Assembly (NCBI RefSeq): GCF_000473045.1
Contig: NZ_AXAY01000009.1
Coordinates: 62,001-126,000, forward strand
Direction of reading: 5' to 3'
Source: Bradyrhizobium sp. WSM3983
Lineage (GTDB): Bacteria; Pseudomonadota; Alphaproteobacteria; Rhizobiales; Xanthobacteraceae
DNA: 64,000 nucleotides
Part shown: in pieces, positions 3,041-59,043 of the stretch
How the letters are laid out: every line of letters starts with the position of its first letter
Numbering within the stretch: the stretch's first letter is position 1
The notes under the pieces: generated by a model
Seen by the model: only the letters and a program-made list of their open reading frames with translations
What the model was told of the DNA's origin: nothing
Database searches by the model: none
Made by a program: the position numbers and the translations under genes

Positions 3041-4567
3041 TTGCCTGTGAGCGATAACCTTCCTGATGATCCCGAAACGCTGAAGGCGATGCTGCTTGCC
3101 GAGCGGCACGAGAGCGAGCGGCTGCGCCAGATCATCAAGGAATTGCAGCGTCATCGCTTTGGCCGGAAGGCAGAGTCGCTTCCTGAGGAGCAGATGCTGC
3201 TGGGCCTCGAGGACGTCCAACAGGTTGCGGCCTGTACGGAAGCCAGCCAAGACGAGACAGCTCCTGAAGGCCGGGCGGAGCGCGCACGCAAGCGCCGCAA
3301 TAATCGCGGAGCACTACCGGCGCATCTGCCGCGGATCGAGGTCGTCGTCGACCTCGACGCCAGGACCTGTCCCTGCTGCAAGGGCGACCTGCACCAGATC
3401 GGTGAAGACAAGAGCGAGCGGCTGGACATGGTGCCGGCGCAGTTCCGCGTTGTCGTCACCCGGCGTCCCAAATACGCCTGTCGCGCATGCGAGGACGGCG
3501 TCCTGCAGGCCGAGGCTCCGGCCCGGCTGATCGAGGGCGGACTGCCGACGGAGGCAACGATCGCCCAGGTTCTGGTGTCCAAATATGCCGATCATCTGCC
3601 TCTCTACCGGCAGGCCCAGATCTATGCCCGCCAGGGCATCACTCTCGATCGATCGACGCTGGCGGATTGGGTTGGGCATGCCGCCTTCCATCTGCGCCCG
3701 CTGCATGAGCGCCTTCTCACGGTGCTTCGAGCAAGGTCTAAGCTGTTCGCCGACGAGACGACGGTGCCGGTGCTCGATCCTGGTCGAGGGCGCACCAAGA
3801 CCGGCCAGCTCTGGGCCTATGCCGCCGACGACAGGCCCTGGGGCGGCCTCGATCCGCCAGGGATCGCCTATGTCTATGCACCCGACCGCAAGGCCGAGCG
3901 GCTGTTCAGCCATCTTGCCGGCTTCAAGGGCGTCCTGCAGGTCGATGGCTACAACGCCTATCCTAAGCTTGCCGAACGTGGCGCGGTCGAGCTCGCATTC
4001 TGTTGGGTGCACATGCGGCGCAACTTCTACGAACTCGCCACCGCCGGCCCCGCACCGATCGCAAGCGAGGCGCTGACGCACATTGCCGCATTCTACGCGA
4101 TCGAGAAGGAGATCCGCGGCCGCAGCTCGGAGGCGCGTCGCCTCGTGCGGCAGCAGAAGAGCCGACCATTGGCCGATGCCTTCGAAGTATGGCTGCGCGC
4201 CAAGCTGGCTCTCATCAGCCAGAAGATCAAGCTCGCCGAAGCCATCCGCTACGCACTCTCGCGCTGGCAAGGCTTAACGCGCTTCATCGATGACGGCCGC
4301 ATCGAACTCGACGACAATACCGTCGAACGATCAATCCGTGGCATCAAGCTCAGTCGCAAGAACTCGCTGTTTGCAGGATCGGATGGTGGTGCTGAACACT
4401 GGGCTGTCGTCGCCTCCTTGGTTGAGACCTGCAAGATCAACGACGTCGATCCGCTCGCCTATCTCACCGACGTCCTGACCAGGATCGTCAACGGGCATCC
4501 AAATCGCGATATCGACCAGCTACTGCCCTGGGCCTACAGCGCTCAAGCCCTCAAAGCCGTGGCCTGA
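3041..4567 (+). CDS. tnpC: IS66 transposase TnpC
   Basis: This 508-residue protein is the DDE transposase. The start is TTG 3041, giving PVSDNLPDDPETLKAM. Order: N-terminal leucine-zipper-like coiled segment (about 10-45), zinc-finger region with CPCCKGDL and CRACEDGVL, then the catalytic core with candidate residues D238 (FADETT), D302 (QVDGYNAY) and E429 (NTVERSIR), and the short C-terminal domain ending before 4567. Length and all motifs are normal, with no frameshift. Confidence 0.95.
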   Translation: MPVSDNLPDDPETLKAMLLAERHESERLRQIIKELQRHRFGRKAESLPEEQMLLGLEDVQQVAACTEASQDETAPEGRAERARKRRNNRGALPAHLPRIEVVVDLDARTCPCCKGDLHQIGEDKSERLDMVPAQFRVVVTRRPKYACRACEDGVLQAEAPARLIEGGLPTEATIAQVLVSKYADHLPLYRQAQIYARQGITLDRSTLADWVGHAAFHLRPLHERLLTVLRARSKLFADETTVPVLDPGRGRTKTGQLWAYAADDRPWGGLDPPGIAYVYAPDRKAERLFSHLAGFKGVLQVDGYNAYPKLAERGAVELAFCWVHMRRNFYELATAGPAPIASEALTHIAAFYAIEKEIRGRSSEARRLVRQQKSRPLADAFEVWLRAKLALISQKIKLAEAIRYALSRWQGLTRFIDDGRIELDDNTVERSIRGIKLSRKNSLFAGSDGGAEHWAVVASLVETCKINDVDPLAYLTDVLTRIVNGHPNRDIDQLLPWAYSAQALKAVA

Positions 4568-23810: not shown

Positions 23811-24551
23811 GTGCGCCAAGTGAGCGGAGTTGAGGAAAACGGGGAGGGCGGCACAGGTACGCGCGAGAAGATTGTGGCGCGTGCCGCCGAGCTACTCGCG
23901 GATGCAGGCCGCGAGTCACTCACGACGCGGGCGGTAGCGGCAGCCTCGGGCGTTCAGCAACCCACCATCTATCGCTTGTTCGGTGATAAGGACTGCCTGC
24001 TTGAGGCCGTGGCCGAGTATGGCTTTCTCGCCTATTTGAAGCAAAAGGATCTCGGTGAGCCCAGGCAGGATCCCGTGGATGCTCTACGAGAAGGATGGGA
24101 CCTGCACGTCGGCTTCGGACTGGCAAATCCCGCTATCTTTTCGATCATGTACGGTAACCCCTGTCCGGGAAAGATGTCGCCGGCCGCAGCTAAGGCTGTC
24201 AACATGCTCCGTCAGCGGATGCGAGCGATCGCCGCTTCCGGCCGGCTACGTGTGACCGAGCAGCGGGGCGCCGATCTGGTCAGAAGCGGGGGATGCGGAA
24301 CAGTGTTCACCCTGCTGGCGATGCCGGAAGCCGAGCGCGATCTCGCATTATCAATCGAGGCGCGCGAGGCAATCATCGCCGCCATCACTACGGAAAAGCC
24401 CATTCTTAATGCGCCTAGCGCCGCAACGGCCGCGATCACGCTTCGAGCCGTCCTCTCTGACGTAACCGCATTGACGGGAAGCGAGCGGCAACTTCTCCAG
24501 GAGTGGCTCGACAAGATCGCTGCGCATGCTGATCAGACCAGAGGTGAGTGA
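23811..24551 (+). CDS. TetR-family transcriptional regulator
   Basis: This 246-residue protein starts at GTG 23811. The HTH is at about residues 18-64: TREKIVARAAELLADAGRE, LTTRAVAAASGVQQPTIYRLFGDKDCLLEAV. The rest is the all-helical ligand-binding domain. It is divergent from the QorB-like gene, whose promoter region holds three palindromes, so it likely represses itself and that gene until an effector binds. The effector is unknown. Confidence 0.92.
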   Translation: MRQVSGVEENGEGGTGTREKIVARAAELLADAGRESLTTRAVAAASGVQQPTIYRLFGDKDCLLEAVAEYGFLAYLKQKDLGEPRQDPVDALREGWDLHVGFGLANPAIFSIMYGNPCPGKMSPAAAKAVNMLRQRMRAIAASGRLRVTEQRGADLVRSGGCGTVFTLLAMPEAERDLALSIEAREAIIAAITTEKPILNAPSAATAAITLRAVLSDVTALTGSERQLLQEWLDKIAAHADQTRGE

Positions 24552-25303
24552 CAAATCCTAGGTTGGGCGAAACCCATTCTCCGGTTGTAGCTCAAATGGT
24601 GCGTTTTGGCCCGGAAAGGACGAAAATGCTTTATCCCTTCGATGGGAGTTGAGTGACACTCTCTCCAGGACATCTTACTCTTGATTTTTGAGCCCCCGGA
24701 TGTGCTCTTCGTATCTTCGCGATATGAGCTACCGCGCGCAGACCGATCGGATACGGGTCAATCCGATGCACGTCGCAAAATAGAATATCAGGGCGAGAGA
24801 AGCAGTATCAACCGGAAGCTGAAATCGTCTTTGCGACGAGGAGCGATTCTGCCCGCTGCGGTGTGTTGCGGGACGTCGCCGCGGTGGGTTTCTGCGTCCG
24901 ACATGCCCTTCGAGAGACTTCAAAGTCGCGCTACGGACCGGCGGGAAGTAGACTCGACCGGTTGAGACTCAAGCGAAGAGGCTTGACGGCTGAAGAAGCC
25001 GACAGGTCACAGAAGCACTAGATGCAGGCGAGCGGCCTCGAAGACCTTCTTCCTCCTCCCTGCCAATCCCGTGAGCGGGTTCGAATATCCCTGAACAGGA
25101 TGGCCGCCATATGCGGCCATCGCCGGACGATCTGACGGCAAAGCAAAACGGCTTTGGTCCGAGCCTCTTCATCCGCGCTAGGAATGCTCGACCGAATTGC
25201 GATCGGGACAGGGCTGCTTCCGCGGGACAGCCCGGCCTCCGCAGTCCTGCGGTTCGGGCGAAATCAAGCAAAAATCGATGAGACAATCGAATCTGAGGGG
25301 AGG
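24552..25303. other. Intergenic region upstream of demethylase operon
   Basis: I find no gene here. The distal 266 bp (24916-25181) is the repeated leader described separately. The remaining part (24552-24915) has only short frames without ribosome binding sites. Confidence 0.5.
24916..25181 (+). repeat. Shared upstream sequence, copy 1 (inverted repeat of 31385-31647)
   Basis: This stretch matches the reverse complement of 31385-31647 over its full length with scattered differences, starting GACTTCAAAGTCG and ending TTCATCCGCGCTAG. It lies upstream of the O-demethylase gene, in the same relative orientation as copy 2 upstream of the outer-membrane channel gene. It contains a 21-bp hairpin ATGGCCGC-catat-GCGGCCAT near 25100-25120. 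It may be a common promoter or leader, or a small mobile repeat. Confidence 0.8.
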
Positions 25304-26641
25304 ATGGCATCTGTGAAAACACCCAGCTTGCAAGATGGCTTGGACCAGGCCGGAAGCGCCGTAAAGCTCCTGTGGAAACCGAATACTCCATCCGTCGCGA
25401 ACCCGGTGGTTCCGCCGGAATATAGTGGCTGGCGCGCCGAGCAGCGGTCGTGGGAAGAAGGAACGGCGCTATTCAACCTCTGCCATCAGATGTGCGATCT
25501 AGTGGTGGAGGGACCGGACGCCTTGCGCCTCTTGTCGGACGTCAGCGCCAACAACTACGAGAAGTTCGCGGTCGGTCAGGCAAAGCAGCTCGTTGCCGTT
25601 ACACATGAGGGGTACCTCATCCAGGACGCGATCATGTTCCGTCTGGGAGAACAGCGGTTCAATCTGGCTGGTCTTGGCGGAGCCCACAAATGGGTCATGT
25701 ATCATGCCAAGCGCGGTAACTATGACGTCCAACTGACATTCGATCCGGCTTCGGACCACCGCGAGGGCAATCCTCTCTTTTTCCGCTATCAGATCCAGGG
25801 GCCGACCGCGATGGGTCTGTTGAACAGACTCTTCGACAATAAACTGGACGACATCAAGTTCATGCGCTTTCGCGAGCTGTCGGTGGCCGGCCGGCCAGTA
25901 TCCGTGCTCCGCCACGGCATGGCGGGCCAAATCGGCTTCGAATTCTTCGGCGACTGGGAAAATGAAGAGACATTCAGGCAGACCGTGCTCGAAGCCGGGA
26001 AGGAGTTTGGCCTCATCCAAGTAGGTGGCCTAGCCTATTACACCACAGCGGCGGACAGCGGCTGGGTGCCGATCCCGATTCCGGGGATTTATACGGATCC
26101 TGCCCTCGAAGATTATCGGCGCTACGTGGGACTTTATTCTCTCGAGGGCCAATTTCCTCTGCAGGGAAGCTTCTACTCTCCCGACATACGGGACTACTAC
26201 TGCTCTCCCTTCGAAATGGGATATGGCCGCTCGGTCTCATTCAATCACGAGTTCATAGGGCGCGAAGCGCTGCTCAAGGCCAAGGATGCGGCCGCGCGAA
26301 CGAAGGTAACGCTTGTGTGGAATGCCGATGACGTGAAGCGCGTGTTTGGCGCTGATCATGGCTTTCTCATGCACATGACGTTCGACCGCGTAGAAAAAGA
26401 CTCAGAAATGGTCGGCTTGTCCCAGTATAGCGCCTACATTGACCCGGACAACACCATCCACTCCTTGGCTCTGGTGAAGAAGGAATTTGCGCAGCCGGGT
26501 ACCGAAGTGACGGTGATCTGGGGACAGCACCCCGGACCGGCGGCCGAACCAGGCATCACGGTCGCATTCGAGCGCATCCGGGCGATCGTGCAACCAGCGC
26601 CCTTCAACGAGTTTGCTCGCACCGCGTACCGAGTGGACTGA
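25304..26641 (+). CDS. THF-dependent aromatic O-demethylase, LigM/DesA-like (GcvT family)
   Basis: This 445-residue protein starts at ATG 25304; GTG 25313 is better spaced from the aggggagg at 25296 and is an alternative. It follows the LigM/DesA pattern: VPPEYSGWRAEQRSWEEG near the N-terminus, the GcvT folate-binding fold through FRYQIQGPTAMGLL, LRHGMAGQIGFEFFG and GREALL, and the aminomethyltransferase C-terminal barrel at the end. LigM and DesA of Sphingobium move the methyl of vanillate or syringate to tetrahydrofolate, leaving a phenol. The next four genes all handle folate-bound carbon, which strongly supports O- or N-demethylation. The methoxy (or N-methyl) substrate is unknown. Confidence 0.85.
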   Translation: MASVKTPSLQDGLDQAGSAVKLLWKPNTPSVANPVVPPEYSGWRAEQRSWEEGTALFNLCHQMCDLVVEGPDALRLLSDVSANNYEKFAVGQAKQLVAVTHEGYLIQDAIMFRLGEQRFNLAGLGGAHKWVMYHAKRGNYDVQLTFDPASDHREGNPLFFRYQIQGPTAMGLLNRLFDNKLDDIKFMRFRELSVAGRPVSVLRHGMAGQIGFEFFGDWENEETFRQTVLEAGKEFGLIQVGGLAYYTTAADSGWVPIPIPGIYTDPALEDYRRYVGLYSLEGQFPLQGSFYSPDIRDYYCSPFEMGYGRSVSFNHEFIGREALLKAKDAAARTKVTLVWNADDVKRVFGADHGFLMHMTFDRVEKDSEMVGLSQYSAYIDPDNTIHSLALVKKEFAQPGTEVTVIWGQHPGPAAEPGITVAFERIRAIVQPAPFNEFARTAYRVD

Positions 26642-26710
26642 AGCCGACTCCACATTTTTTGCAGTCTGGGCTCCGCGGTCGCGCGCGGCGCGATGGGACA
26701 GCTGTACCTG

Positions 26711-26728
26711 AGAGGCCTTCGGGCCTCT
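26711..26728 (+). promoter_or_regulatory. TTCG tetraloop hairpin before metF
   Basis: AGAGGCC (26711-26717) pairs perfectly with GGCCTCT (26722-26728) around TTCG. It lies between the demethylase stop and the metF GTG and is not followed by a U-run. It could stabilise a processed mRNA end or tune expression of metF and the genes after it. Confidence 0.5.
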
Positions 26729-26748
26729 ATCGTCCATGGGAGAATATC

Positions 26749-27618
26749 GTGACTGTGCCGGTAAAGCACGCAGGCTGGGCAGATAATAGCACCACAATCG
26801 TAGATGGCTTCTCGCTGGAGATGACGGCCAAGGACGTCTTGTCTCTCCGTGAGGCTGCCTCGCACATTCCCCGTGGAGCTTCGGTCGCCGTTACGTTTCT
26901 GGCAGGAGAGACATTCGAAGCGCGCCTGGATGCAATCAGGGAGTTGCGCGCTCTGGGTTTCGAGCCGATGCCCCACCTTTCCGCCCGCCGCATTCGGTCT
27001 TCCTCCGAGTTCGAAGGCTTTTTGGTCTCTGTGGCGTCCGGCTACCGCGTGAAGCAGTGTTTCGTCATCGCCGGCGATGCGGCGGCGCCCGAGGGTCCCT
27101 ATTCCGACAGCATGGCGCTCCTCACGTCCGGTGCGTTCGAGCGAAGCGGAATATCCGCCATCGGAATCGGGGGTCACCCGGAAGGAAATCCCAGAATGTC
27201 GGGGGAGCAATGCTGGACCGTCCTCCAGCAAAAGTGTTCAGAGATTGCGAGCAGGGAGATGGAGCCATTTATCGTGACCCAGTTCGCGTTCGACGCCGAA
27301 CGTGTACTGGCTTGGCTCTCCCAGTTGCGCGCCCGTGGTATTGACGCTCCGGTTCGCATAGGTGTGCCGGGTCCCGCCGGAATCAAGGTTCTGCTTAGAT
27401 TCGCAGCGCGGTGTGGCGTCGCCGCGTCCGGCGCCGTGTTGGCAAAATACGGCATATCGCTCACCAATCTATTCGGGACGGCCGGCCCGGAAAAGATGAT
27501 CAACACGCTGGCGGCTGGCCTGAGGCCCGAGCACGGCCCGGTCAGCCTGCACTTCTATCCCTTTGGCGGTCTCGCGAAGACAGCGAACTGGGTCAGCGAA
27601 TACGCGCGATCGCGCTGA
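26749..27618 (+). CDS. metF: Methylenetetrahydrofolate reductase
   Basis: I start at GTG 26749 (gggaga 5 bp upstream), giving 289 residues, a normal bacterial MetF length. The TIM-barrel FAD enzyme pattern is clear: [79 protein letters not shown] and HFYPFGGL at the end. In this operon it should run as an oxidase of 5-methyl-THF, delivered by the demethylase, to methylene-THF, as MetF does in lignin-aromatic degradation by Sphingobium. It is a catabolic paralogue rather than the methionine-biosynthesis copy, judged only from its place. Confidence 0.92.
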
Positions 27619-27652
27619 TGGGCGCTACCGCAAAGGGGACGGGGAGCCTTGG

Positions 27653-28510
27653 ATGAACGATATCAATATCTTGAAACTGCAATGCCCAAACCGTCCGGGT
27701 CTCGTCGCGGAAGTGGCGGGCTTTCTGGCCGATCGCAATTGCAACATCGTTGACGCGCAACAGTTTGACGACCCGTTCAGCGGTCGCTTCTTCATGCGTG
27801 TGGCGTTTCAGCCCGGCCAACGGGACAGCCTTGCGTCATTGGGACGGGAGTTCTCAGTGATCGCAGAAAACTGTAGTATGGAATGGTCCCTACGCGACTC
27901 GAACGAACGGAAGAAGGTTCTCCTGATGGTCTCCAAGTGGGACCATTGCCTTGGTGACCTGCTGTATCGCACTCGTATCGGAGAGCTGCCGATGGATGTC
28001 GTGGCGGTCGCCTCGAACCATCCTCGCGAAGCGATGCGAACGTTCGGTATCCTCGATATTCCCTTCCATTACTTCCCGGTAACAAGAGATTCAAGATCCA
28101 ACCAGGAAGCACAGATCAGGCAGCTCGTAAACCAGACCAAAGCCGATCTCATCGTACTGGCACGCTACATGCAAATCCTATCGGATGACCTTGCCGCGTT
28201 TCTGTCCGGCCGCTGCATTAACATTCATCACAGCTTCCTGCCTGGCTTCAAAGGCGCCAAACCCTATCATCAAGCGCATGAGCGTGGCGTGAAGATGATC
28301 GGAGCAACCGCTCATTACGTGACGGCAGATCTCGACGAAGGGCCGATCATCCACCAGGACGTAGAATCTATCAGTCATGCCGACAGCCCGGACGACCTGG
28401 TCCGCAAGGGTCGCGATATCGAGCGGCGCGTATTGGCGGAGGCGGTACGCCTCCATCTGAACGACCGTGTACTGTTGAACGACAGCCGCACCGTTGTCTT
28501 CAGGAATTGA
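27653..28510 (+). CDS. purU: Formyltetrahydrofolate deformylase
   Basis: ATG 27653 gives 285 residues. The N-terminal ACT domain is residues 1-85 ([27 protein letters not shown]). The formyl-transferase fold follows: [38 protein letters not shown] with catalytic histidine, [17 protein letters not shown] with catalytic aspartate. PurU hydrolyses 10-formyl-THF to formate and THF. In this operon it would close the cycle by freeing THF for the next demethylation. The ACT domain senses the methionine/glycine balance in E. coli PurU. Confidence 0.95.
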
Positions 28511-28513
28511 CGC

Positions 28514-29374
28514 GTGGCGCAGTTGATTGACGGTCGGGTGATGGCCCGCATCATCCACGGTGAAACAGCGGTCCGCGTGAGGAGGCTGAACGCGGAGGGT
28601 ACGAATCCAGCTCTCGCTGTGGTGCTTGTTGGCGATGACCCCGCCAGCGAGGTGTACGTCAGTCGCAAAGTGGCTGAATGCCGGAAAGCGGGCATCACGT
28701 CGGTCGAACATCGTATGCCTGCAGACAGTGACGAAACCAGCGTACTCGTATTGATCGATGCCCTGAACGAGGACCCATCCATCCACGGGATTCTTGTTCA
28801 GTTGCCGCTGCCGATCCAAATCAATGCGACCAGTGTGCTTGATCGCATTGCACCGGCAAAGGATGTCGACGGCTTTCACCCTGTCAATGTTGGACGCTTG
28901 TCAACGGGCATGGGTGGTCTGGTTCCATGTACGCCCCTCGGCGTCATGCGGTTGCTCGACAGCGTGATCGCCGACTATCGGGGACTCAACGCCGTCGTGA
29001 TCGGCAAGTCGAACATCGTCGGAAAGCCGGTCGCGATGCTACTGCTCGAGCGCGAGGCGACCGTCACGGTCACCCATATCCAGACGCGCAATCTTCCCGA
29101 TATTGCTCGCACCGCCGACATCATTGTGGCGGCGGCGGGGGCACCGCTGCTGGTGCGAGGCTCCTGGGTGAAGTCGGGCGCTGTCGTCATCGACGTCGGC
29201 ATCACACGGATGGTGCAAGCGGACGGCACGACGAAATTGGTGGGAGATTGCGCGACGACGGAGCTCGATCACGCACGTGCCGTAACTCCGGTGCCTGGCG
29301 GTGTCGGCCCGATGACTATCGCCTGTCTGCTCAGCAACACCGTTCAGGCCGCGGAGGCCGCACAACATCCGTAA
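28514..29374 (+). CDS. folD: Methylenetetrahydrofolate dehydrogenase / methenyl-THF cyclohydrolase
   Basis: GTG 28514 lies 3 bp after the purU stop and yields 286 residues. FolD motifs are all present: VGDDPASEVYVSRKVAEC with the catalytic lysine, ILVQLPLP, PAKDVDGFHPVN, CTPLGVMRLL, VIGKSNIVGKPVAMLLL, and TPVPGGVGPMTIACLL. It oxidises methylene-THF to methenyl-THF with NADP and hydrolyses it to 10-formyl-THF, the substrate of PurU. Order metF-purU-folD with tight spacing supports one transcript. Confidence 0.95.
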   Translation: MAQLIDGRVMARIIHGETAVRVRRLNAEGTNPALAVVLVGDDPASEVYVSRKVAECRKAGITSVEHRMPADSDETSVLVLIDALNEDPSIHGILVQLPLPIQINATSVLDRIAPAKDVDGFHPVNVGRLSTGMGGLVPCTPLGVMRLLDSVIADYRGLNAVVIGKSNIVGKPVAMLLLEREATVTVTHIQTRNLPDIARTADIIVAAAGAPLLVRGSWVKSGAVVIDVGITRMVQADGTTKLVGDCATTELDHARAVTPVPGGVGPMTIACLLSNTVQAAEAAQHP

Positions 29375-29399
29375 GAATGTCCGCACAAGCGATGTCAGG

Positions 29400-29744
29400 G
29401 TGTGTGTTAGCGACCTGAGACTGATGGCCCTGGTCGGCGTTCATTCGCACGAAATCGAACGCTCGCAGCCCATCATTGTTTCGGTCGAGCTGTCTCTCAT
29501 CGGAGAAGCTCCCGAGGCCCTTTGCGATACCATCGACTATCGCCAGATTATTCAGGTGGCCGAGGCTCTGTCCAAGATGCATATTCCGCTTATCGAGACC
29601 TTCGCGGACAGACTCGGGCGGGCGTGCATCGAATGGAACGGGGTCGAGCAGGCCCGGGTCAAGATCGTAAAGCCGCATGCCCTTGAGAAAGGGATTGCGA
29701 GCATTGAAGTCACGATCCGACGTGAAGACGAAATGACACTCTAG
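29400..29744 (+). CDS. folB: Dihydroneopterin aldolase-like protein (FolB/FolX family)
   Basis: The frame gives 114 residues from GTG 29400; the same frame is open upstream without a standard start, and the family usually has a few more residues before VSDLRLMALVGVHSHE, so the true start is uncertain. The remainder fits FolB: IIVSVELSL, DTIDYRQIIQVAEAL, IPLIETFADRLGRACIEW, VKIVKPHALEKGIASIEVTI. FolB makes 6-hydroxymethyl-dihydropterin on the way to folate. Beside a folate-consuming demethylase it may raise the cofactor pool. Confidence 0.8.
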   Translation: MCVSDLRLMALVGVHSHEIERSQPIIVSVELSLIGEAPEALCDTIDYRQIIQVAEALSKMHIPLIETFADRLGRACIEWNGVEQARVKIVKPHALEKGIASIEVTIRREDEMTL

Positions 29745-30296: not shown

Positions 30297-31343
30297 CTAG
30301 AATTTTACGGTTATGCCGGAATAGAGCGAGTTTTCTGTGCAGGTATGATTGTTGACACCATTAGTGTAGCACAAAAAGTTGGCCGGGTTGCTGTCGTCGA
30401 GACCGAACTTGTTTTTCCAGTATCTGTAGGCGACCCAGACGTCGACAAAGTGCGAATATTTCTCTCCCCAGATGGCCTTGCTGGCGTCGAACGTTAGCCG
30501 TATCGGCTCACTCTCTATCTGGACTGTCGTGTTGAATGACGCGGGAACCGAGTACGGACCCGGTCCGCCCGTTCCGCCCGGCCCATAGAAACCAGCGCGA
30601 CCACTGATTGCAAAGTATTGGAGCTCGGCAGGAAGGAAACCGAGGTCCATATAATAATTGATTTCCAGTGCCCAAGACGGATGATAGTTGAGCTCGCCAT
30701 CGGGAAGACCGGTCAGCCCGGGTGGCACAAACTGAGATCCGGTCTGAAGATATCCGTCGTGGGTCCACTCCTGATAAATAAGTGGAGCCACGTTCACATA
30801 GCCCTTATAGGGCAATGCAAACTGAAATTGCAGGCCCGCTAAGAGTTTCCTCGTATCAGAGGCATAATATGAATTTTCCGTGCCAACGTCCGCGCCCACT
30901 TCAAATGAGATATTATTCAGAGGACCGAGATTGAACGCCTTGGTGTCGAAAATCTGGTTCCAGCCAAAGGTGCTTCGCGCGACGGCGTAAAATTCTGTTC
31001 GGCCGGCGCACCCAGTGGGGATAGCCAGCACAGGAGTGCAAGGTACGGCTGGATCGCTGTGGCTGGACTTGGAATAACCGAGATTGATGAAGTTGGTCCC
31101 GTAAGCCCACGCGTCAAAGTGCGTGAATGCAACCGTTTGTCTCGAGGTAAGATTCGTGACCCCAGGAAATGTCCCCGTGAATAAGTAGGCGTACGTCAAT
31201 CGGTTGTCGTTGACCAAAAAGAACGGAAGTTCGGGAGGAGGCGAGGTCTTTTTTACCGGCTTGGCCGGCACATCGGCCGCATAAACAGAACCTGCAATTG
31301 ATGCGGTAAACACCGCGGCAAGCACCAGCGAGCTGCGCTTCAT
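30297..31343 (-). CDS. Outer-membrane beta-barrel channel, Tsx-like
   Basis: I start at ATG 31343, which gives a signal peptide (MKRSSLVLAAVFTASIAGSVYA) and a mature protein of about 326 residues; the frame extends upstream into the shared repeat but that is not coding. A proline-rich linker (PAKPVKKTSPPPELP) precedes barrel sequence with FTHFDAWAYGTNFI, which resembles nucleoside-specific channel Tsx-like proteins, and the chain ends in phenylalanine (GITVKF) as barrels do. Its upstream region is shared with the demethylase operon, so import of the methoxylated substrate is a reasonable guess. Confidence 0.7.
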   Translation of the reverse strand: MKRSSLVLAAVFTASIAGSVYAADVPAKPVKKTSPPPELPFFLVNDNRLTYAYLFTGTFPGVTNLTSRQTVAFTHFDAWAYGTNFINLGYSKSSHSDPAVPCTPVLAIPTGCAGRTEFYAVARSTFGWNQIFDTKAFNLGPLNNISFEVGADVGTENSYYASDTRKLLAGLQFQFALPYKGYVNVAPLIYQEWTHDGYLQTGSQFVPPGLTGLPDGELNYHPSWALEINYYMDLGFLPAELQYFAISGRAGFYGPGGTGGPGPYSVPASFNTTVQIESEPIRLTFDASKAIWGEKYSHFVDVWVAYRYWKNKFGLDDSNPANFLCYTNGVNNHTCTENSLYSGITVKF

Positions 31344-31384
31344 CGAAATATCCCCCCTGGAAAGGCATTTTGTGAGCAGCACCA

Positions 31385-31647
31385 CTAGCGCGGATGAAGA
31401 GGCCCGGACCAAAGCCGTTTCGCTTTGCCGTCAGATCGTCCGGCGATGCCCGCATATGGCGGCCACATGTTCAGGGATATTCGAACCGGCTCACGGAATC
31501 GGGCAGGAGAAGGATGTCTTCGAAGCCGCTCACCGAGAGCTATTCGCTTCTGTGAGCCATTGGCGTCTTCGGCCGCCAAGCTTTCTTTGCTTGAGTCTCA
31601 ACCGGGCGAGTCTGCTTCCCGTCGGTCGGTAGGGCGACTTTGAAGTC
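31385..31647 (-). repeat. Shared upstream sequence, copy 2
   Basis: This is the inverted partner of 24916-25181. It lies 42 bp upstream of the channel gene start and ends near the stop of the MetE-like gene. The hairpin seen in copy 1 is partly lost here (GTGGCCGC-catat-GCGGGCAT), while the flanking bases are well kept. Confidence 0.8.
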
Positions 31648-31681
31648 GTCCAAAGGACAAGATCTCGCTCTCACCTGAGGT

Positions 31682-32701
31682 TCAATCGGCCAAGGCAATT
31701 TCTCGATGGAGTTCGAGAAGATCGCCGATCGTTTCGGGTGGCCGACGCCCAAATCCGCATTCGGTCGCTACCCCAAACTCCGTTCTGACCTGTCTTGCGG
31801 CGTTGAGACGGCGCTTTGCGCCTTCAATGCCGTCCGAGCGATGGATCAGTCCGAGATACAACTCCGCCGTTGCAGGAAGATCAAGCGCACGCAGCGGAGC
31901 GAAGTAGGACGCATCGTCCCGGTTTGCGGGGACCGGCATATGAACCCAGTGGATGGGGTGCGAGAGACCGTTGACCAGAGCGTTGGTGAACTCGACCATA
32001 AGGCCCATATCCTTCGGGTCGACGAAATGCTTTTCATCGCCTGGATCACCGTAGCAAAGATGAAACCCAAGCTCGACTTCGGGAGGTATGTCCGCGCTCA
32101 CGCGCACGATCGAGTCGACCAGTCGGTCCATCGGTAGCGCCTTGGCAAGCTCTGCATTCTCCAGAATGTACCAGAATTCGACCGCGACATCGAATTGAAG
32201 TGCGAGCTCAGTCGAGGGAATGTGGCTCACAATCTGCGAGATCTCTTCGCACAAGCGCATCTCATAGGCTGGCCACGCGACAGGTAGAGAATCGAGCTCG
32301 CAGAAGGAGGAGATTACCGCGATGGGCGTCGGCAAGCTGACCTGGAAGCGCGTTTCCGGCGCAATGTTGCCGGCAGCTTTCGCAGTTCGGAAGTCGCGAT
32401 AAGACGTCAGCGCGGCTTCGGCGTAGCCCAAGGCGCCGAACTGGACCTCTCCGGTCGCGCGAAAGACGGGAAACTTGAAGCCGCCTTCGATTTCTCGTAT
32501 CGCGGCCACTTCGAGACCCCTGGTTTTGGCAAGGACGTCTGTTTGCCACAATATCCAGTTCCTGCGCACGCCCGTCTCGCCGTCGGGGATCCGCTTGATC
32601 CGCGCCCCCAGTGTGGTTCCGATCAGGTCGAACACAGCCGAAGCAGACTCGAGAGGAACGCTCCCAACAAGAGCGATCGGTCTTCCTGTCTTCTTAGCCA
32701 A
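31682..32701 (-). CDS. MetE-like cobalamin-independent methyltransferase (UROD/MetE fold)
   Basis: This 339-residue protein matches the C-terminal catalytic half of MetE-type enzymes. Zinc ligands expected for thiol activation are visible: H214 and C216 in FHLCYGD and C315 in TECGFGRR. Other landmarks are LVGSVPLES and IRRIPDGETG-like IKRIPDGETGVRRNW near the start. Short stand-alone forms transfer methyl groups from folate or other methyl donors to thiols. Opposite a THF-demethylase operon it could recycle methyl-THF into methionine or transfer the methyl from another donor. It lies upstream of the channel gene in the same direction. Confidence 0.8.
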   Translation of the reverse strand: MAKKTGRPIALVGSVPLESASAVFDLIGTTLGARIKRIPDGETGVRRNWILWQTDVLAKTRGLEVAAIREIEGGFKFPVFRATGEVQFGALGYAEAALTSYRDFRTAKAAGNIAPETRFQVSLPTPIAVISSFCELDSLPVAWPAYEMRLCEEISQIVSHIPSTELALQFDVAVEFWYILENAELAKALPMDRLVDSIVRVSADIPPEVELGFHLCYGDPGDEKHFVDPKDMGLMVEFTNALVNGLSHPIHWVHMPVPANRDDASYFAPLRALDLPATAELYLGLIHRSDGIEGAKRRLNAARQVRTEFGVATECGFGRRPPETIGDLLELHREIALAD

Positions 32702-39210: not shown

Positions 39211-40068
39211 ATGTGGTTGTGTCAGTTCAATGAAAGAGGTTTCGGGCTCGTCGAGGGGAACGAGATCGTCGACCTGACTCACTTGCTGGAAGAGCTGCCG
39301 GCTACGGGCTATCCCTATCCAACTCACGATACCATGATCGCGGCCTTGCCCGACCTTCTGCCTCGCATCGCCGATGCGAAGATGGGGCCGCGCCTGCCAC
39401 TCGCATCAGTTCGCTTGCAGGCTCCGGTTCGCAACCCGGGCAAATTTGTCGCGGCGCCGGTCAACTATGCCAAGCACCATGAAGAGACGATCGCCGATCC
39501 TGCAACGTTTGCGCGCGAGCACGTCCGCAAGATACAGGAAACGGGACTTTTCCTCAAAGCAACGAGCTCGAGCAGCGGTCCGTCCGATCCGATCCGGACG
39601 CGCTTTCCGGACCGGCGCACCGACCATGAGATCGAGCTTGCGGCGGTGATTGGTCGCGCCGGCAGCAATATAGCGGCCGCCGATGCCTTGTCCTATATCG
39701 CGGGGTATTGCATTGGTCTGGACATCACAGTTCGCGGGCCTGAGGAACGCAGTCTTCGAAAATCCATCGACAGCTACAGCGTGCTGGGCCCTTGGCTGGT
39801 AACCGCAGACGAAATTCCAGACCCTTCGGGGTTGAACTTCGAGCTAAGCGTCAATGGCGAGATCCGCCAGAAGGCCAATACGAGCGACTTGATCATGTCG
39901 GTGCCTGAGCTCATCGAGTTCGCGTCGCGCTACTACACGCTTCATCCCGGGGATGTGCTGTTTACAGGCACACCGGAGGGCGTAGGGCCGATCCAGCCAG
40001 GTGACAAGGTCCATGCGAATATCGAGCGGATTGGTTCAATCTCTATTTCCGTCGATTCGTCGGAGTGA
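39211..40068 (+). CDS. Fumarylacetoacetate hydrolase family protein (third copy)
   Basis: This 285-residue protein has the FAH fold with metal set HEIELAAVIG (two glutamates) and CIGLDITVRG (aspartate), PGKFVAAPVNYAKHH, and the ending GDVLFTGTPEGVGPI. An unusual insert LKATSSSSGPSDPIRTRFPD sits before the metal motif, as in some fumarylpyruvate hydrolases. A gentisate-dioxygenase-type gene lies at 44277, so fumarylpyruvate or maleylpyruvate is the likely substrate. The vanA remnant follows about 80 bp downstream. Confidence 0.88.
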   Translation: MWLCQFNERGFGLVEGNEIVDLTHLLEELPATGYPYPTHDTMIAALPDLLPRIADAKMGPRLPLASVRLQAPVRNPGKFVAAPVNYAKHHEETIADPATFAREHVRKIQETGLFLKATSSSSGPSDPIRTRFPDRRTDHEIELAAVIGRAGSNIAAADALSYIAGYCIGLDITVRGPEERSLRKSIDSYSVLGPWLVTADEIPDPSGLNFELSVNGEIRQKANTSDLIMSVPELIEFASRYYTLHPGDVLFTGTPEGVGPIQPGDKVHANIERIGSISISVDSSE

Positions 40069-42541: not shown

Positions 42542-42764
42542 AAATGGGCAGCGGCATTCCCCACCGATGCCGCACCCCGATCCGACGAGCACGAGTTCTG
42601 CTGAGGATCATTCCGACAATGTCTGACGACAAATCGAAACGGCTTTAGCGCGCCGGCTACGTGCGAGCTACAGAATGGAGGAGCAAAACAGAGAGGGGAG
42701 AGGACATGGTGGCGTTTCGATCGATCGAGGATTTGAGTCAGGCTGGTGCGTTCGGAGTTTCGCT

Positions 42765-44228
42765 ATGAGCCAAGCGGAAATCGTCGTCCCCACGCAAAAA
42801 GGCCTGTTCTTTGGTGGTCGTTGGCAGACGCCGGCCGAGGCCAAGCCGGTTGAGATCCGCAGCCCGGCGACCGGCGCGCTTCTGACCAGTATCGTCGAGG
42901 CGTCCGAACGGGACGTGGATGCGATTGTTGCGTCGGCACGCAAGGGGTACGCGATCTGGCGCGACGTCCACCCATTTGAGCGGGCAAAGATCCTTCGCGA
43001 GATGGCGGCCATCGTTCGCGCTAACATAGAGGAACTAGCGCTTCTCGAGGCGATCGACTGCGGAAATCCGGTGGATGAGTTGCGGCGTGACGTGGAGATG
43101 TCCGCCTGGCTGCTCGACTTCTTTGCGGGTCTGGTCACCGAAATGAAGGGATCGTCGGTGCCGGCCGGCCCGAACGGACTCAGTTTCTCTGTTCGCGAGC
43201 CCTATGGGGTGGTGCTCCGGATCGCACCCTTCAATCATCCCTTCATCTTCAGCATTGGCCGCACCGCCGCGCCTCTTGCTGCGGGCAATTCAATCATCGT
43301 CAAACCGCCCGAGCAGGCCCCGCTATCGGCGCTGCGCACGACCGAACTGGTTGGCCATCTGTTTCCGCCGGGCGTCCTTAATATGATACCGGGAGATCGC
43401 CATCTGGGCGCCGCGCTCACCGCACATCGCGACGTCGCGCTAGTCGCTGTGACAGGGAGCGTGCCCACCGGAAAGGCGGTGATGCGCAGTGCGGCGGACA
43501 GCCTCAAGAGAGTTCTTCTCGAACTCGGCGGCAAGAATGCACTCGTCGCCATGCCTGATTGTGATCCGGAAGCCGTCGCGTCCGCGATGGTACGGGGCAT
43601 GAACTACACGTGGTGCGGCCAGTCCTGCGGCTCCACAAGTCGGGCGTTCGTCCATGCCGACATCTATGACGCCGTGATTGAGCGACTGCCGGCGCATGCG
43701 GCACGGTACAAACCCGGTGTCCCCACTGATCCCGGCACGACGATGGGCAGTCTTGTGAGCCAGGCCCAACTCGACAAGTCGCTGGCCTATATCGAGGGGG
43801 CAAAGGCCGAGGGAGCCCGGCTTGTCTGCGGCGGAAGCCGGCCAGTCCATGACGGTCTTGACAAGGGATTCTTCCTTGAGCCGACAATCTTTGCCGATGT
43901 CACGATGGATATGAAGGTCGCGCGGGAGGAGATCTTTGGACCTGTCATGTCCGTGCTGAGATGGACTGACGAGGATGAGATGATGCGGCAGGTCAACCAG
44001 GTCGAATATGGGCTGACCTTTTCAATTTACACGCGCGACATCGTCAAGGCGCACCGTCTCGCGGCGCGCGCCGAAGCTGGGTATTGCTGGGTAAACGAGG
44101 TCTCCCGACACATCGTCGGCTCTCCGTTCGGAGGATTCAAGCAATCCGGCATAGGCCGCGAAGAATGTCTCGATGAACTTCTCTCCTATACCCAGGAGAA
44201 GAACATTTTTGTCAATCTCGGGATCTGA
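42765..44228 (+). CDS. Aldehyde dehydrogenase family protein
   Basis: I start at ATG 42765 for 487 residues; the frame is open from 42675 but that extension is not family-like. Landmarks: RIAPFNHPF, TGSVPTGKAVM, E253 (LLELGGKNAL), nucleophile C288 (WCGQSCGSTSR) and EEIFGPVMSVL. The end FGGFKQSGIGREE is standard. It lies upstream of the gentisate-dioxygenase gene and may oxidise an aromatic aldehyde, for instance from side-chain cleavage, to the acid. Confidence 0.92.
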   Translation: MSQAEIVVPTQKGLFFGGRWQTPAEAKPVEIRSPATGALLTSIVEASERDVDAIVASARKGYAIWRDVHPFERAKILREMAAIVRANIEELALLEAIDCGNPVDELRRDVEMSAWLLDFFAGLVTEMKGSSVPAGPNGLSFSVREPYGVVLRIAPFNHPFIFSIGRTAAPLAAGNSIIVKPPEQAPLSALRTTELVGHLFPPGVLNMIPGDRHLGAALTAHRDVALVAVTGSVPTGKAVMRSAADSLKRVLLELGGKNALVAMPDCDPEAVASAMVRGMNYTWCGQSCGSTSRAFVHADIYDAVIERLPAHAARYKPGVPTDPGTTMGSLVSQAQLDKSLAYIEGAKAEGARLVCGGSRPVHDGLDKGFFLEPTIFADVTMDMKVAREEIFGPVMSVLRWTDEDEMMRQVNQVEYGLTFSIYTRDIVKAHRLAARAEAGYCWVNEVSRHIVGSPFGGFKQSGIGREECLDELLSYTQEKNIFVNLGI

Positions 44229-44276
44229 GTTGTGCGGTACGAAGAACAACATCGTGCGAGGACGTGAGGTGCGTTG

Positions 44277-45332
44277 ATGGAAGGGCCGTTGGCAAATGAT
44301 CGGCAGGTCGCGTTCGAGGCGCTTTACGCCGACATGGAGCAGGAGCATCTTTATCCGCTCTGGAAGGCGCTGGGCACAATGGTCACTCCCGTCCCGCGCG
44401 GGGGCGGCACGGGAGTGAAATGGCGCTTCTCCGATATCCGTCGCCATCTCATGCGCGCCGGTGACCTGATCAGCGCCGAAGAGGCCGAGCGACGTGTCTT
44501 GATCCTGGAGAATCCGCAGTTACCAGGCAGCCGGGGGATCACCACCAGTCTGTACGCCGGCCTTCAACTGATTCTTCCTGGTGAGGTAGCACCTTGCCAT
44601 CGGCACAGCCAGTCAGCGTTGCGCTTCGTTCTGGAAGGGGAGGGGGCTTTCACCGCGGTCGACGGCGAAAAGGCCTTCATGCACGAGTTCGATCTTATCC
44701 TGACGCCCGGCTGGCAATGGCACGATCATGCCAATCCGTCGTCCAGGCCCATGATCTGGCTCGACGGCCTGGATGTCCAGACGGTCAAGACATTCGACGC
44801 GAGCTTTGCCGAAAAAATGGGAGAGGCCTCGCATCCCGAGACGGTGCCAACCGGCGATAACGTGCTGCGCTATGGCCGAAATCTTCGTCCAATGCGCGGG
44901 ACGAGTGCCGAGCGCCGGCCCCGTGCTCTGCCGTTGTTCTACTACCCCTATGCGCAATGGCGTGAGAGCTTGGACCGTTTGGCGCGGAGCGACGAGCCGG
45001 ACCCGCATTTCGGCTTTGCTCTGGAATTCACGAATCCAGCAGATGGTGGCTCCATTATGCCCACCATGTCGGCCCACGTGCGGCTGATGCCGCGAGGTTT
45101 TGCTGCCGCGCCGCGCCGCGCCAGCGATGCGACGGTGTTCGTCGTTGTTGAGGGCCACGGGAGCGCGCGCGTCGGTGATATGGAGCTCACTCTCTCCGGG
45201 AGCGACATATTCGTAGTGCCGGCCTGGCATCGTCTGACCCTGACGGCGAACAGTGATCTTGTGCTCTTCGGCTATTCGGATCGGGCTGCTCAAGAGAAGC
45301 TAGGCCTATTCCGCGAGGCGCGCGGTGACTGA
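44277..45332 (+). CDS. Gentisate 1,2-dioxygenase-type bicupin
   Basis: ATG 44277 gives 351 residues. Two cupin domains are present. The first has the iron ligands H108, H110 (CHRHSQSALRFVLEG) and H149 (WQWHDHAN); the second (260-345, VVEGHGSARVGDMEL) lacks the HxH set, as is normal for gentisate and salicylate 1,2-dioxygenases. The enzyme opens the ring of gentisate to maleylpyruvate with Fe(II) and O2. An FAH gene at 39211 could hydrolyse the product. Related enzymes accept salicylate or 1-hydroxy-2-naphthoate, so the exact substrate is open. Confidence 0.88.
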   Translation: MEGPLANDRQVAFEALYADMEQEHLYPLWKALGTMVTPVPRGGGTGVKWRFSDIRRHLMRAGDLISAEEAERRVLILENPQLPGSRGITTSLYAGLQLILPGEVAPCHRHSQSALRFVLEGEGAFTAVDGEKAFMHEFDLILTPGWQWHDHANPSSRPMIWLDGLDVQTVKTFDASFAEKMGEASHPETVPTGDNVLRYGRNLRPMRGTSAERRPRALPLFYYPYAQWRESLDRLARSDEPDPHFGFALEFTNPADGGSIMPTMSAHVRLMPRGFAAAPRRASDATVFVVVEGHGSARVGDMELTLSGSDIFVVPAWHRLTLTANSDLVLFGYSDRAAQEKLGLFREARGD

Positions 45333-54942: not shown

Positions 54943-56209
54943 GAATGATTTCCTTAACAACTGCGGTCCGTTTCGTGCCGCGAACGGCGGATGTGTCGAG
55001 AAACAGCATCGCAACGATGGCGACGAGGGGGACGAGGCAAAGTTGCAGGAGGGCTGCATTGCCCCAGCCCGAATGATTGACCAGAAGCGCAAACAGGTAA
55101 CCTGCTAGGCTGGCCGGCAAATAGAGGCAGGTAATCATCACACCGGATGCACGGCCGACCTGCGCGGGTCGTACACAGCGCTGAATCAAGGCATAGGTAT
55201 TAATGAAAACGAAGCCGCTTCCGATCGCGCCTGCGAGCAACGCCAACATGCCTTGGGCTGCTGCTGATCTAGCGAGATTGAAGATCGAATAGTTGTTTAC
55301 CATCATCACGATGGTCGCAAAGATCGCAATCCAGCGCTGGTTGAAGCGGTCTGCTACGTAGCCGGCGGGTATCCCGAACAGGGCGCCGGCGCCGAACAAA
55401 CTCGCCGCCAAGCCGGCTTCGGTGACGCTGAAACCCAGCTCGCTGCGCAGGAATGTGGGATAAAGACCGAGGAAGCCGTAGCCTGCGACACCAAGCGTGA
55501 CCGCACTGATCGCGCAAATGACTACATTCCAATTGAGAACATTAGGCGGAAGGTTTTCCGTTGAATCCTGCACTACCATATCGACGAGCTCGCCTGCTTG
55601 CTCGGTAAACGAAGGCGAGACCGCAGCGACGGTGGCGATGATAATGACAAGGCCCAATAGACCATAGCTGATCAGGGGAACGCGCCAGTCACCACTCCAG
55701 AACAGCAGGTACGCCGCCAGCATAGGTCCCACAAAGGAGCCGACGCCATAGGCGAAATTCATCGACCCGAGCGCCACTGCGCGGTTGTTGGCGAAGTAGG
55801 CGCCCACGGCAGTGAAGAGTGCTGCTTGTTGCATGCCCTCGCCGACGCCGGAAAGTGTCCGATAGAACGCCATGTCGTAAAAGCCGATAGAGAAGGCCGA
55901 CATGATTGTCAGGACCGAGTAGAGCGCGACCCCGATGACAAGCACCTTTAGTCGCGTCAGCCGATCCATCAGGAAACCCGTCGGAAGGCCGGAGAGGCCG
56001 ATTCCCAGCGTGAAGATAGTGGATAGAAATCCACCCTGTTCGAGAGAGAAGGCGAAGGACTTATTGATGTTTGGCAGCAGTACCGGAAAGACGATGCGGT
56101 CCATGGCATTGATCGCGTAGGTGATGCCGAGCATACCTAGCATCGTCAGCGCGACCTTGATTGGCAGCCGCGCTCGCGATGTCGTATGGATTTCGAACGG
56201 TTGGGTCAT
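54932..56209 (-). CDS. MFS transporter
   Basis: This 425-residue protein has about 12 hydrophobic segments, beginning VALTMLGMLGITYAINAMDR. GFLMDRLTRLKVLVIG is the loop 2-3 signature and RTLSGVGEGMQQAALFTAVG the fourth-fifth helix region, as in anion/aromatic acid carriers. A cytoplasmic loop near 200-235 separates the halves. It is flanked by hydrolase genes on the same strand and probably imports their substrate. Confidence 0.85.
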   Translation of the reverse strand: MTQPFEIHTTSRARLPIKVALTMLGMLGITYAINAMDRIVFPVLLPNINKSFAFSLEQGGFLSTIFTLGIGLSGLPTGFLMDRLTRLKVLVIGVALYSVLTIMSAFSIGFYDMAFYRTLSGVGEGMQQAALFTAVGAYFANNRAVALGSMNFAYGVGSFVGPMLAAYLLFWSGDWRVPLISYGLLGLVIIIATVAAVSPSFTEQAGELVDMVVQDSTENLPPNVLNWNVVICAISAVTLGVAGYGFLGLYPTFLRSELGFSVTEAGLAASLFGAGALFGIPAGYVADRFNQRWIAIFATIVMMVNNYSIFNLARSAAAQGMLALLAGAIGSGFVFINTYALIQRCVRPAQVGRASGVMITCLYLPASLAGYLFALLVNHSGWGNAALLQLCLVPLVAIVAMLFLDTSAVRGTKRTAVVKEIIHEQ

Positions 56210-56282
56210 GGCGCCCCGGGCACATATAGTTTCAAGCTGTGGGCTGAACGGTCCAGGTCCCGTCGACCGGGTCTGGAATGCT

Positions 56283-57515
56283 TCAAATGAGAGGCGCCAC
56301 GGGGGATTCTCTCCTCAGAACCTTCTCGTCGATGCCGAATGTTTTGCAGAGCCAGTCGCCGATGATTTCCTGGCCCAGCGTCGGATTGTCGTGCTGACAG
56401 TGATCCGCGCCCGTCTCTTCCTCGCTGACCAAGTGAAATGTCACGTCGACTCCCTTGGACACAGCATAGTCCCTGACGATCTGCGCCTGTTTCACGCCGA
56501 GGACGTCGTAGCCACCATGAACGATCAAGTACGGGCATTTCATATTGTCGAGCGCGCCTTCGAGCCGAAATCGCTTGACCACCTCGGGAAGCTCTTTCAT
56601 CGACTTCGCGCCTGTGACCCACAACAGATGCTTCGCGAGCGGGTGATCCTCGGACCGCTCTCCGATTTGAGCCGCAAAATCCCAGATTGCGCCGTGCGAG
56701 ATGCAGGCGGCAAGACGCGGCTCAAAGCTGCCAGCCCGGGCCGCGTAGTAGCCGCCAAGGCTGGATCCGCACACCGCGATCCTTGACGCGTCCACGTCGT
56801 TGCGCGTCGCCAGATAGTCGATGCAGCGGCCGATCGGGACTTCATAATCATAGCGGCTGACGACCCCGTGGCGGCGCAGTGTGCCGCCCTGACCCGGCCC
56901 GTCAACCATCAGAACGGAAATGCCGCGCTGGAGGGCGCCGCGTGCCTGCATGAACCACATTTCGTCCTTGATCGAGTCGAGGCCGCCCATCGAAATAAGC
57001 ACCGGCTGCTTTCCGGCACCATGTGGCGAGCGCACGAAATAGGCGCAAAGAGACACGCCTTTCTCGTACGGTACATCAACGACCTCGCCAGCGGGCGCGA
57101 GATAGGAGATGAACTTCTTGGAGCAGGCTTCCATCAACTCGAACGTTGCTAGACGGCGCGGATCATTCGCAGGCAACCAGAATTCGGCCTGCCGGTAATA
57201 TCCAGCTGCCCGCAGCCAACAGTTCTGAGCGGTCTGGATATGACCTGCCTCCTCGGCCCTGGTAGCTCGCTCGCGATTCCGCTCTGCGACGCCCATCCAC
57301 TCCCGATGCCAGCTTTCGTCATCACCCGGCTTCATTCTTGAGGCCGCCAGGAAGACTTCGCTGATGGCGCCGGCACCTTCCTGCGTCTCTCCAAGGCCGC
57401 GTCGAAATTGATACGACCACCACGGATGATCCGGCCAATGCTGCCATCCGTACGGTTCGTAATGCGGATTTGAGTTCGTCGCCTGCGTTTCGATCAACGT
57501 GGTTTCGCGAGCCAT
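56283..57515 (-). CDS. Alpha/beta hydrolase, FrsA/2,6-dihydroxypseudooxynicotine-hydrolase-like
   Basis: This 410-residue protein has a helical N-terminal domain (1-150) with AQNCWLRAAGYYRQAEFWL, then an alpha/beta hydrolase core: DGPGQGGTLRRHG, nucleophile S252 in CGSSLGGYYAARA, IVHGGYDVLGV (aspartate) and a late GADHCQHDNP (histidine). That layout is that of FrsA-like and nicotine-pathway C-C bond hydrolases. It is the first gene of the minus-strand unit and is divergent from an XRE-cupin regulator 178 bp away. Confidence 0.85.
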   Translation of the reverse strand: MARETTLIETQATNSNPHYEPYGWQHWPDHPWWSYQFRRGLGETQEGAGAISEVFLAASRMKPGDDESWHREWMGVAERNRERATRAEEAGHIQTAQNCWLRAAGYYRQAEFWLPANDPRRLATFELMEACSKKFISYLAPAGEVVDVPYEKGVSLCAYFVRSPHGAGKQPVLISMGGLDSIKDEMWFMQARGALQRGISVLMVDGPGQGGTLRRHGVVSRYDYEVPIGRCIDYLATRNDVDASRIAVCGSSLGGYYAARAGSFEPRLAACISHGAIWDFAAQIGERSEDHPLAKHLLWVTGAKSMKELPEVVKRFRLEGALDNMKCPYLIVHGGYDVLGVKQAQIVRDYAVSKGVDVTFHLVSEEETGADHCQHDNPTLGQEIIGDWLCKTFGIDEKVLRRESPVAPLI

Positions 57516-57567
57516 AAGGGCACCCTCAAATACATAAGGTTAGAGCACGCTTTTACGTGGTACCGCA

Positions 57568-57594
57568 ATGTCGTTCAAGTACCTTGAATGACAT
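57568..57594. promoter_or_regulatory. 27-bp palindrome, probable operator of XRE-cupin regulator
   Basis: The core TTCAAG-TAC-CTTGAA extends outward to ATGTC...GACAT with one mismatched pair. It is in the gap between the divergent hydrolase (start 57515) and regulator (start 57694) genes, so it can control both. A further half-site TTCAAG follows at about 57605. Confidence 0.65.
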
Positions 57595-57693
57595 TCACGT
57601 ACAATTCAAGCCGCGGCGGCATAATTTCTAAGGCGCTGGAAAGTTTCGGCTTTTAGCTTAAGGTCCTCGATTGGGTCCAACCGAGAATCGGAT

Positions 57694-59010: not shown

Positions 59011-59043
59011 AATCTGATTAAATTAGACGCAACGCTGGCGTGT

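Follow-up and report, generated by a model that had tools for sequence, protein, structure and literature searches.

Tetrahydrofolate (THF)-dependent demethylases need neither oxygen nor NADH, but their product 5-methyl-THF can choke them. In Rhizorhabdus dicambivorans Ndbn-20, the genes dmt-metF-dhc-purU reportedly form one transcription unit for dicamba demethylation, as described by Yao et al. in 2016. This unit reportedly holds a DesA/LigM-type head followed by MetF, a FolD-type Dhc and PurU, and would match in four of five functions the set considered here, a LigM/DesA-like gene (the head) followed by metF, purU, folD and a folB-like gene (the tail) in Bradyrhizobium sp. WSM3983. It differs in that it is not known to include folB, dhc precedes purU and the head is a dicamba demethylase, reportedly about 46% identical to DesA. 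The Bradyrhizobium set lies in a stretch of 64,000 nucleotides (contig NZ_AXAY01000009.1, positions 62,001 to 126,000), hereafter the window, where all five genes are intact on one strand at 25304-29744, as the original prediction had them. We read them, with a probability of about 0.7, as a catabolic operon that would O-demethylate an aromatic compound and discharge the methyl group as formate.

Other described systems share parts of this arrangement. In the cmu pathway of Methylobacterium extorquens CM4, metF and purU are essential for growth on chloromethane; as far as the available text goes, the methyl group enters THF and exits via MetF2, FolD and PurU as formate, as proposed here, and folC2, a folate-building gene, is likewise on the plasmid, where the window has folB (PMC3621897). 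The same text describes the methyl group as reaching THF via the corrinoid proteins CmuA/CmuB and not via a GcvT-type head (PMC3621897). As the one-carbon arm is the same, the original view that the gene set is not a described system was too strong. The ligM-metF-ligH operon of Sphingobium sp. SYK-6 shares the head family and the MetF type (48% identity) with the window, but its exit runs through LigH (formyl-THF synthetase) and folD lies outside the operon as described in the accessible part of the report (PMC6888825); this agrees with the contrast originally drawn with a Sphingobium route of ligM, metF and a formate-THF ligase. Atu1420/Atu1418 of Agrobacterium fabrum likewise combine a THF-dependent O-demethylase with a MetF for which the reverse reaction has been proposed; however, the demethylase acts on vanillate, and the six enzymes listed for the region do not include PurU, FolD or FolB (PMC7797058). 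BrdA and SesA resemble the window head in being THF-dependent, GcvT-like and directed at plant aromatics but, according to the accessible part of their description, transfer methylene instead of methyl (PMC5547118), for which MetF would be unneeded. In the open literature, outside which most subscription papers lie, no paper was recognised with folB in such an operon. Apparent novelties are the recurrence of folB in such units, a head clade with no characterised member and signs that a single tail may serve different heads. A compact tail that drains 5-methyl-THF to formate, together with a gene that possibly enlarges the folate pool, would be a ready-made component for converting lignin and degrading herbicides, and the uncharacterised head clade points to a demethylation substrate still to be assigned.

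The five-gene set and its predicted chemistry

In the proposed mechanism, the LigM-like head would pass the methyl of an aromatic O-methyl group to THF, and the MetF-like protein would oxidise the resulting 5-methyl-THF to methylene-THF, the reverse of the textbook MetF reaction and as in SYK-6. FolD would then convert methylene-THF to 10-formyl-THF, which PurU would hydrolyse irreversibly to formate and free THF. Hydrolysis by PurU forgoes an ATP but is irreversible; this step would pull the chain forward and lift inhibition by 5-methyl-THF, and FolB would most likely supply additional folate to accept the methyl groups. The related enzymes Dmt and Dmt50 suffer severe inhibition by 5-methyl-THF (PMC9404685), so that a draw towards formate would be reasonable.

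The tail proteins support the closed methyl-to-formate route of the original prediction, with a SYK-6-type MetF, FolD and PurU all present. The MetF-like protein matches the structure 7xg9 (5,10-methylene-THF reductase) with E=6.5e-80. It scores 25.3 bits on the general methylene-THF reductase (MTHFR) Pfam model, against a cut-off of 24, and 20.9 bits on the canonical MTHFR model TIGR00676, far under the cut-off of 293.7. The aligned 268-residue segment of 7xg9 is identical to that of a MetF (locus L149) adjoining a LigM identical to the SYK-6 LigM segment, so 7xg9 is the SYK-6 enzyme or a twin. At 48% identity to this SYK-6-type MetF of L149, the window protein is assigned to the SYK-6 (S6MTHFR) type and predicted to oxidise 5-methyl-THF, as S6MTHFR does in SYK-6 (PMC12585457). 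PurU scores 339.4 bits on the equivalog TIGR00655 (cut-off 285.95) and is a predicted 10-formyl-THF deformylase. FolD, with its catalytic and NAD(P)-binding domains over cut-off (PF00763 and PF02882; 125 and 201.8 bits), is a predicted methylene-THF dehydrogenase/cyclohydrolase and is 74-77% identical to FolD in four plasmid cassettes (L057, L058, L061 and L062). The FolB-like protein clears the Pfam cut-off (PF02152, 70.9 bits vs 31.8) and falls short of the equivalog TIGR00525 (56.4 vs 72.15 bits). Its Glu18, Tyr47 and Lys91, which we take to be the catalytic residues, are conserved in all 20 aligned rows, and the cassette FolB proteins have a common signature, lacking a three-residue stretch of the protein encoded on contig C17. 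The gaps between the five genes, from head to FolB, are 107, 34, 3 and 25 nucleotides, and the genes would be co-transcribed.

The head matches the LigM structures 5tl4 and 5x1i with E of about 1e-97 in a PDB search (5tl4, 1.7e-97 across residues 6-442) and is 39% identical to SYK-6 LigM over 462 columns. By homology it is a full-length member of the THF-dependent aryl O-demethylases (LigM/DesA/Dmt) of the GcvT superfamily, and transfer of a methoxy methyl to THF is predicted. It scores below the cut-offs of both the LigM (NF047885, 392.5 vs 580 bits) and the DesA (NF047633, 415.1 vs 800 bits) NCBIfam models, and the remaining NCBIfam models give at most 84 bits. Tyr245 aligns with Tyr247 of LigM, which is presumably the catalytic residue and is a tyrosine in 102 of 108 aligned rows; the invariant Glu215 is also kept. 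However, the head has Gln, Leu, Leu and Leu in place of His60, Arg122, Gln57 and Arg245, the majority residues in 100, 90, 97 and 92 of the 108 rows, respectively. As these rows are mostly LigM and DesA, the replacements mark a departure from those two and not from the whole family. The original prediction had named vanillate and syringate among candidate substrates; given the missed cut-offs, the replaced residues and a position outside both clades (see below), vanillate, 3-O-methylgallate and syringate are all improbable, and the substrate perhaps lacks the benzoate carboxylate.

The genome holds a second five-gene set on the same contig, just left of the window and about 27 kilobases (kb) from the first, edge to edge. 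Identity between the two copies is 36-39% for LigM, 44% for MetF, 66-67% for PurU, 63% for FolD and 41% for FolB. The second set has an aromatic-ring hydroxylase before it and an amidohydrolase-2 gene after it; its head keeps His60 and Gln57 and, like the window head, is without Arg122 and Arg245. Further PurU, FolD and FolB genes and a canonical MetF (on contig C24, 308 bits on Pfam) lie on four other contigs (C70, C11, C17 and C24) and presumably perform housekeeping; the clustered copies are therefore extra. Formate-THF ligase (PF01268) had no match in this genome, which is rated 100% complete, in a search that gave matches in four of 14 control genomes, and so a LigH-style exit as in SYK-6 looks closed. 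PurU, which the original prediction had placed where the ligase would stand, is likely the exit to formate in this strain, and two formate dehydrogenase alpha subunits score over cut-off in the genome.

Recurrence of the tail and placement of the heads

A tblastn search with FolB found 11 plasmid records, all from sphingomonads, of which seven were examined. On five of these (L057, L058, L060, L061 and L062), metF, purU, folD and folB are contiguous in that order, with genes for an alpha/beta hydrolase and a demethylase in divergent orientation to them. On plasmid L059 the set is rearranged with ligAB inserted, and L063 (9096-12591) has folD-folB and a distant GcvT-like gene, with no metF or purU within the stretch. 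The heads on L057, L059 and L060 pass both cut-offs, scoring 835-901 bits on the DesA model and 613-635 on the LigM model. The LigM-like query matched 84 plasmid records, and five picked for variety were examined. On a Rhodococcus opacus plasmid, LigM-MetF-PurU-FolD follow the order of the window. Upstream of this set lie a Mur-ligase-type gene and pabB, downstream of it LigAB-like genes, and in its vicinity folP and fdhD; because its proteins are distant (MetF 30%, PurU and FolD 44% identical to those of the window), this order may have arisen independently. LigM-MetF-PurU was found in Rhizobium anhuiense, LigM-MetF on an Agrobacterium plasmid and in the archaeon Halobellus, and in Thermomicrobium the head gene is without these partners nearby.

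In the family of genome G539, taken to be a sphingomonad family, 73 of 397 genomes carry this kind of MetF, at 78 places. With up to 7 kb taken per side and some stretches clipped by contig ends, the neighbour counts are lower bounds: a LigM-like gene at no fewer than 70 places, FolD at least 40, PurU at least 38, FolB at least 10 and all four at least five. The genome search suggested with the original prediction returned the five-gene order exactly as in the window at L103 and that of copy 2 at L145. The grouping of the five genes is judged to be more than chance because a second, diverged set exists in the genome and the set recurs on plasmids. For folB, which had been described as a pterin gene added as if to expand the folate pool, recurrence upholds membership in the unit, though most loci are without it; pool expansion would be its predicted role. 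Further folate-building genes accompany related sets: the Rhodococcus set has pabB, a Mur ligase and folP, L153_1, the nearest relative of the window head, adjoins pabB (chorismate-binding domain), and the chloromethane plasmid bears folC2 (PMC3621897). That such genes were recruited more than once would fit a demand for extra folate.

Close relatives of the head are few. L153_1 is the closest among those encountered, at 50% identity, and a contig scan found a single locus, in Novosphingobium hassiacum (37%). Among 265 genomes of the same genus, no other close head was found at E <= 1e-60; two carried a relative, one broken and one 37% identical. The latter (L170, genome G1145) sits between PurU and FolD. 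Clusters with no nearby MetF (L170 583-3602 and L063 9096-12591) have the make-up expected for methylene donors, and whether metF accompanies such a cluster may distinguish methyl from methylenedioxy donors by sequence alone.

A tree of 108 head proteins, built quickly and with long branches that leave deep placements uncertain, contains a LigM clade of 34 rows and a DesA clade of 51. The window head falls in neither and forms a pair with L153_1 (support 100). The nearest rows of the window MetF, PurU and FolD are mostly from DesA-linked loci. In the MetF tree the window falls in a group of 14 rows with support of 86, under the 95 mark; nine are DesA-linked, three (the window included) have other heads and two have no head in the stretch. 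The smallest strongly supported group (97) comprises 28 rows, LigM-linked loci among them. This hints that one tail may have been joined to different heads. The copy-2 MetF, PurU and FolD are nearest by path to those of L145, and the copy-2 head is in the same five-row clade as the L145 head. Common descent of the whole operon of copy 2 and L145 was considered and rejected: the tail fits, but the head is nearer to L152 (58%) and L163 (55%) than to L145 (46%). A broader proposal, which we hold tentatively and at somewhat less than even odds, is that metF-purU-folD-folB is a portable disposal tail, used with at least three heads (DesA, copy-2 and window types) and carrying its own folate gene. 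Other lineages would independently have added pabB, a FolC-like ligase, folP or folC2 against a shortage of free THF, and the window head would represent a new class of demethylase, acting on a methoxy compound without the benzoate carboxylate of LigM and DesA substrates.

Observations against the operon and competing explanations

Several observations weigh against a five-gene operon for aryl methyl ethers. FolB was found at only 10 of the 78 comparable loci, many of which are also without PurU or FolD, and is therefore not essential to the scheme. In the strain's own taxonomic family, a LigM-like match occurs in 24 of 296 genomes; at 19 LigM-like loci MetF is nearby in five cases, FolD in one and PurU and FolB in none, so that the five-gene arrangement is not characteristic of that family. 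A class-wide search found this MetF in 66 of 385 genomes, and two places taken solely via that search (excluding the strain's own genome and those already among the 78) have no LigM-like gene in the stretch. Further, with 39% identity to LigM and conserved residues replaced, the head could act on a substrate other than an aryl methyl ether. Lastly, the 107-nucleotide gap between head and metF holds a small UUCG hairpin. A terminator or regulatory hairpin in this gap was rejected, as the folding is no better than that of shuffled sequence (z 0.18). Promoter prediction yielded six sites (2.8 expected) and placed none on the + strand directly ahead of ligM; terminator prediction yielded five (6.6 expected).

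Most competing explanations concern the substrate of the head. It might be a diverged vanillate/3-O-methylgallate or syringate O-demethylase with LigM or DesA function, given its full-length homology to LigM and a DesA-type protein (39-41% identity) and given that the same tail in sphingomonads adjoins proteins that pass the DesA and also the LigM cut-off. However, scores far under both equivalog cut-offs (415 vs 800 and 392 vs 580), the replacement of His60, Arg122, Gln57 and Arg245 and the placement with L153_1 outside both clades, albeit in a quick tree with long branches, make this improbable. A head acting instead on an N-methyl or S-methyl substrate, in a unit for general methylotrophy, is very unlikely: the enzymes for dimethylsulfoniopropionate, trimethylamine N-oxide and dimethylglycine are GcvT-superfamily relatives, but the aryl O-demethylase models are by far the best (392-415 bits vs at most 84 for other NCBIfam models) and aromatic-catabolism genes lie near both copies. 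We give scarcely more than a slim chance to a demethylenase of the BrdA/SesA type, which would make methylene-THF directly from methylenedioxy rings. Such THF-dependent GcvT-like enzymes exist, as the available part of their report states (PMC5547118), and there are sets with no MetF nearby, namely PurU-GcvT-like-FolD (L170 583-3602, same genus) and FolD-FolB-GcvT-like (pEP1). Both copies, however, carry the 5-methyl-THF-oxidising type of MetF, superfluous for a methylene donor, and the head clusters with LigM-like enzymes and not with the most divergent rows of the tree.

The fate of the carbon and the extent of the unit can also be read differently. The unit could feed methyl carbon to methionine, serine and purines instead of formate, as proposed for LigM-S6MTHFR of SYK-6, which yields 5,10-CH2-THF (PMC12585457); the products of MetF and FolD do serve as biosynthetic donors. 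This is not what would be expected of a set whose PurU destroys 10-formyl-THF and whose MetF, FolD, PurU and FolB are extra copies of genes found elsewhere in the genome, and we consider it improbable. A functional unit of four genes, with FolB a bystander or engaged in another pterin reaction, deserves more weight and is nevertheless unlikely. The scarcity of FolB at related loci (10 of 78) and its score under the TIGR00525 cut-off speak for it. On the other side, FolB adjoins folD in both copies and in five contiguous plasmid cassettes with its catalytic residues kept, and other folate genes accompany the Rhodococcus set (pabB, Mur-ligase type, folP) and the nearest head relative (pabB).

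Surroundings of the operon

Table 1. Features of the locus and of the second set (window positions unless stated otherwise)
Feature	Positions	Strand	Remarks
LigM/DesA-like head gene	25304..26641	+	445 amino acids; intact open reading frame
MetF-like gene	26749..27618	+	GTG start; intact open reading frame
PurU gene	27653..28510	+	intact open reading frame; ACT and formyl transferase domains
FolD gene	28514..29374	+	GTG start; intact open reading frame
FolB-like gene	29400..29744	+	GTG start; intact open reading frame; dihydroneopterin aldolase, cassette subfamily
Second five-gene set, MetF-PurU-FolD-FolB-LigM	G000:C69 about 56036-60655 (L032 14036-18655)	-	sequence comparison
Upstream region, about 285 nucleotides, possible shared promoter/operator	24904..25188	+	inverted repeats 85-93% complementary
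Second copy of upstream region, before porin gene	31378..31659	-	inverted orientation
Palindrome ATGGCCGC-CATAT-GCGGCCAT, candidate operator	25100..25120	.	inside duplicated region, read from sequence
Porin-like outer-membrane protein with signal peptide (both by eye)	30297..31343	-	behind duplicated region
TetR-family regulator upstream of operon, candidate controller	23811..24551	+	PF00440

The region upstream of the operon occurs in full only twice in the genome, with 86% identity between the copies; besides these there is one 35-nucleotide match. In the second copy the 21-nucleotide palindrome has two changes, one missing base and one substitution. The porin-like protein behind it, for which no Pfam match was found, is possibly a co-regulated substrate channel, and the duplication fits shared control of uptake and demethylation. 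Alternatively, this geometry could be what is left of a mobile segment. The operon was likely gained horizontally, and the catabolic region may lie on an integrative or conjugative element. The contig has TrbL, TrbI, a TraG-type coupling protein and LuxI/LuxR (L032 789-11978; L180 9603-16712), and an IS66-family transposase (3041-4567) is encoded close to the window's left edge, in the interval that separates the two operons. Two direct repeat pairs of 120-123 nucleotides (48379-48501/49248-49370 and 1005-1124/6403-6522) are 95-98% identical.

Cobalamin-independent methionine synthase II genes occur in 21 of the 78 MetF loci. An open reading frame of 339 amino acids at 31682-32701 on the - strand shows a weak local match to one methionine synthase II (E 8e-4, single comparison) and HLC and ECGFG motifs by eye, but matches nothing in NCBIfam or, up to an E of 1, in Pfam. 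This candidate MetE-like partner is left as a lead. Elsewhere in the window, a gentisate 1,2-dioxygenase scores over cut-off (44274-45332), its link to the operon being a candidate only; a FAH-family hydrolase and an aldehyde dehydrogenase lie near it (39211-40068, 42675-44228), and the window holds two FAH-family hydrolases in all.

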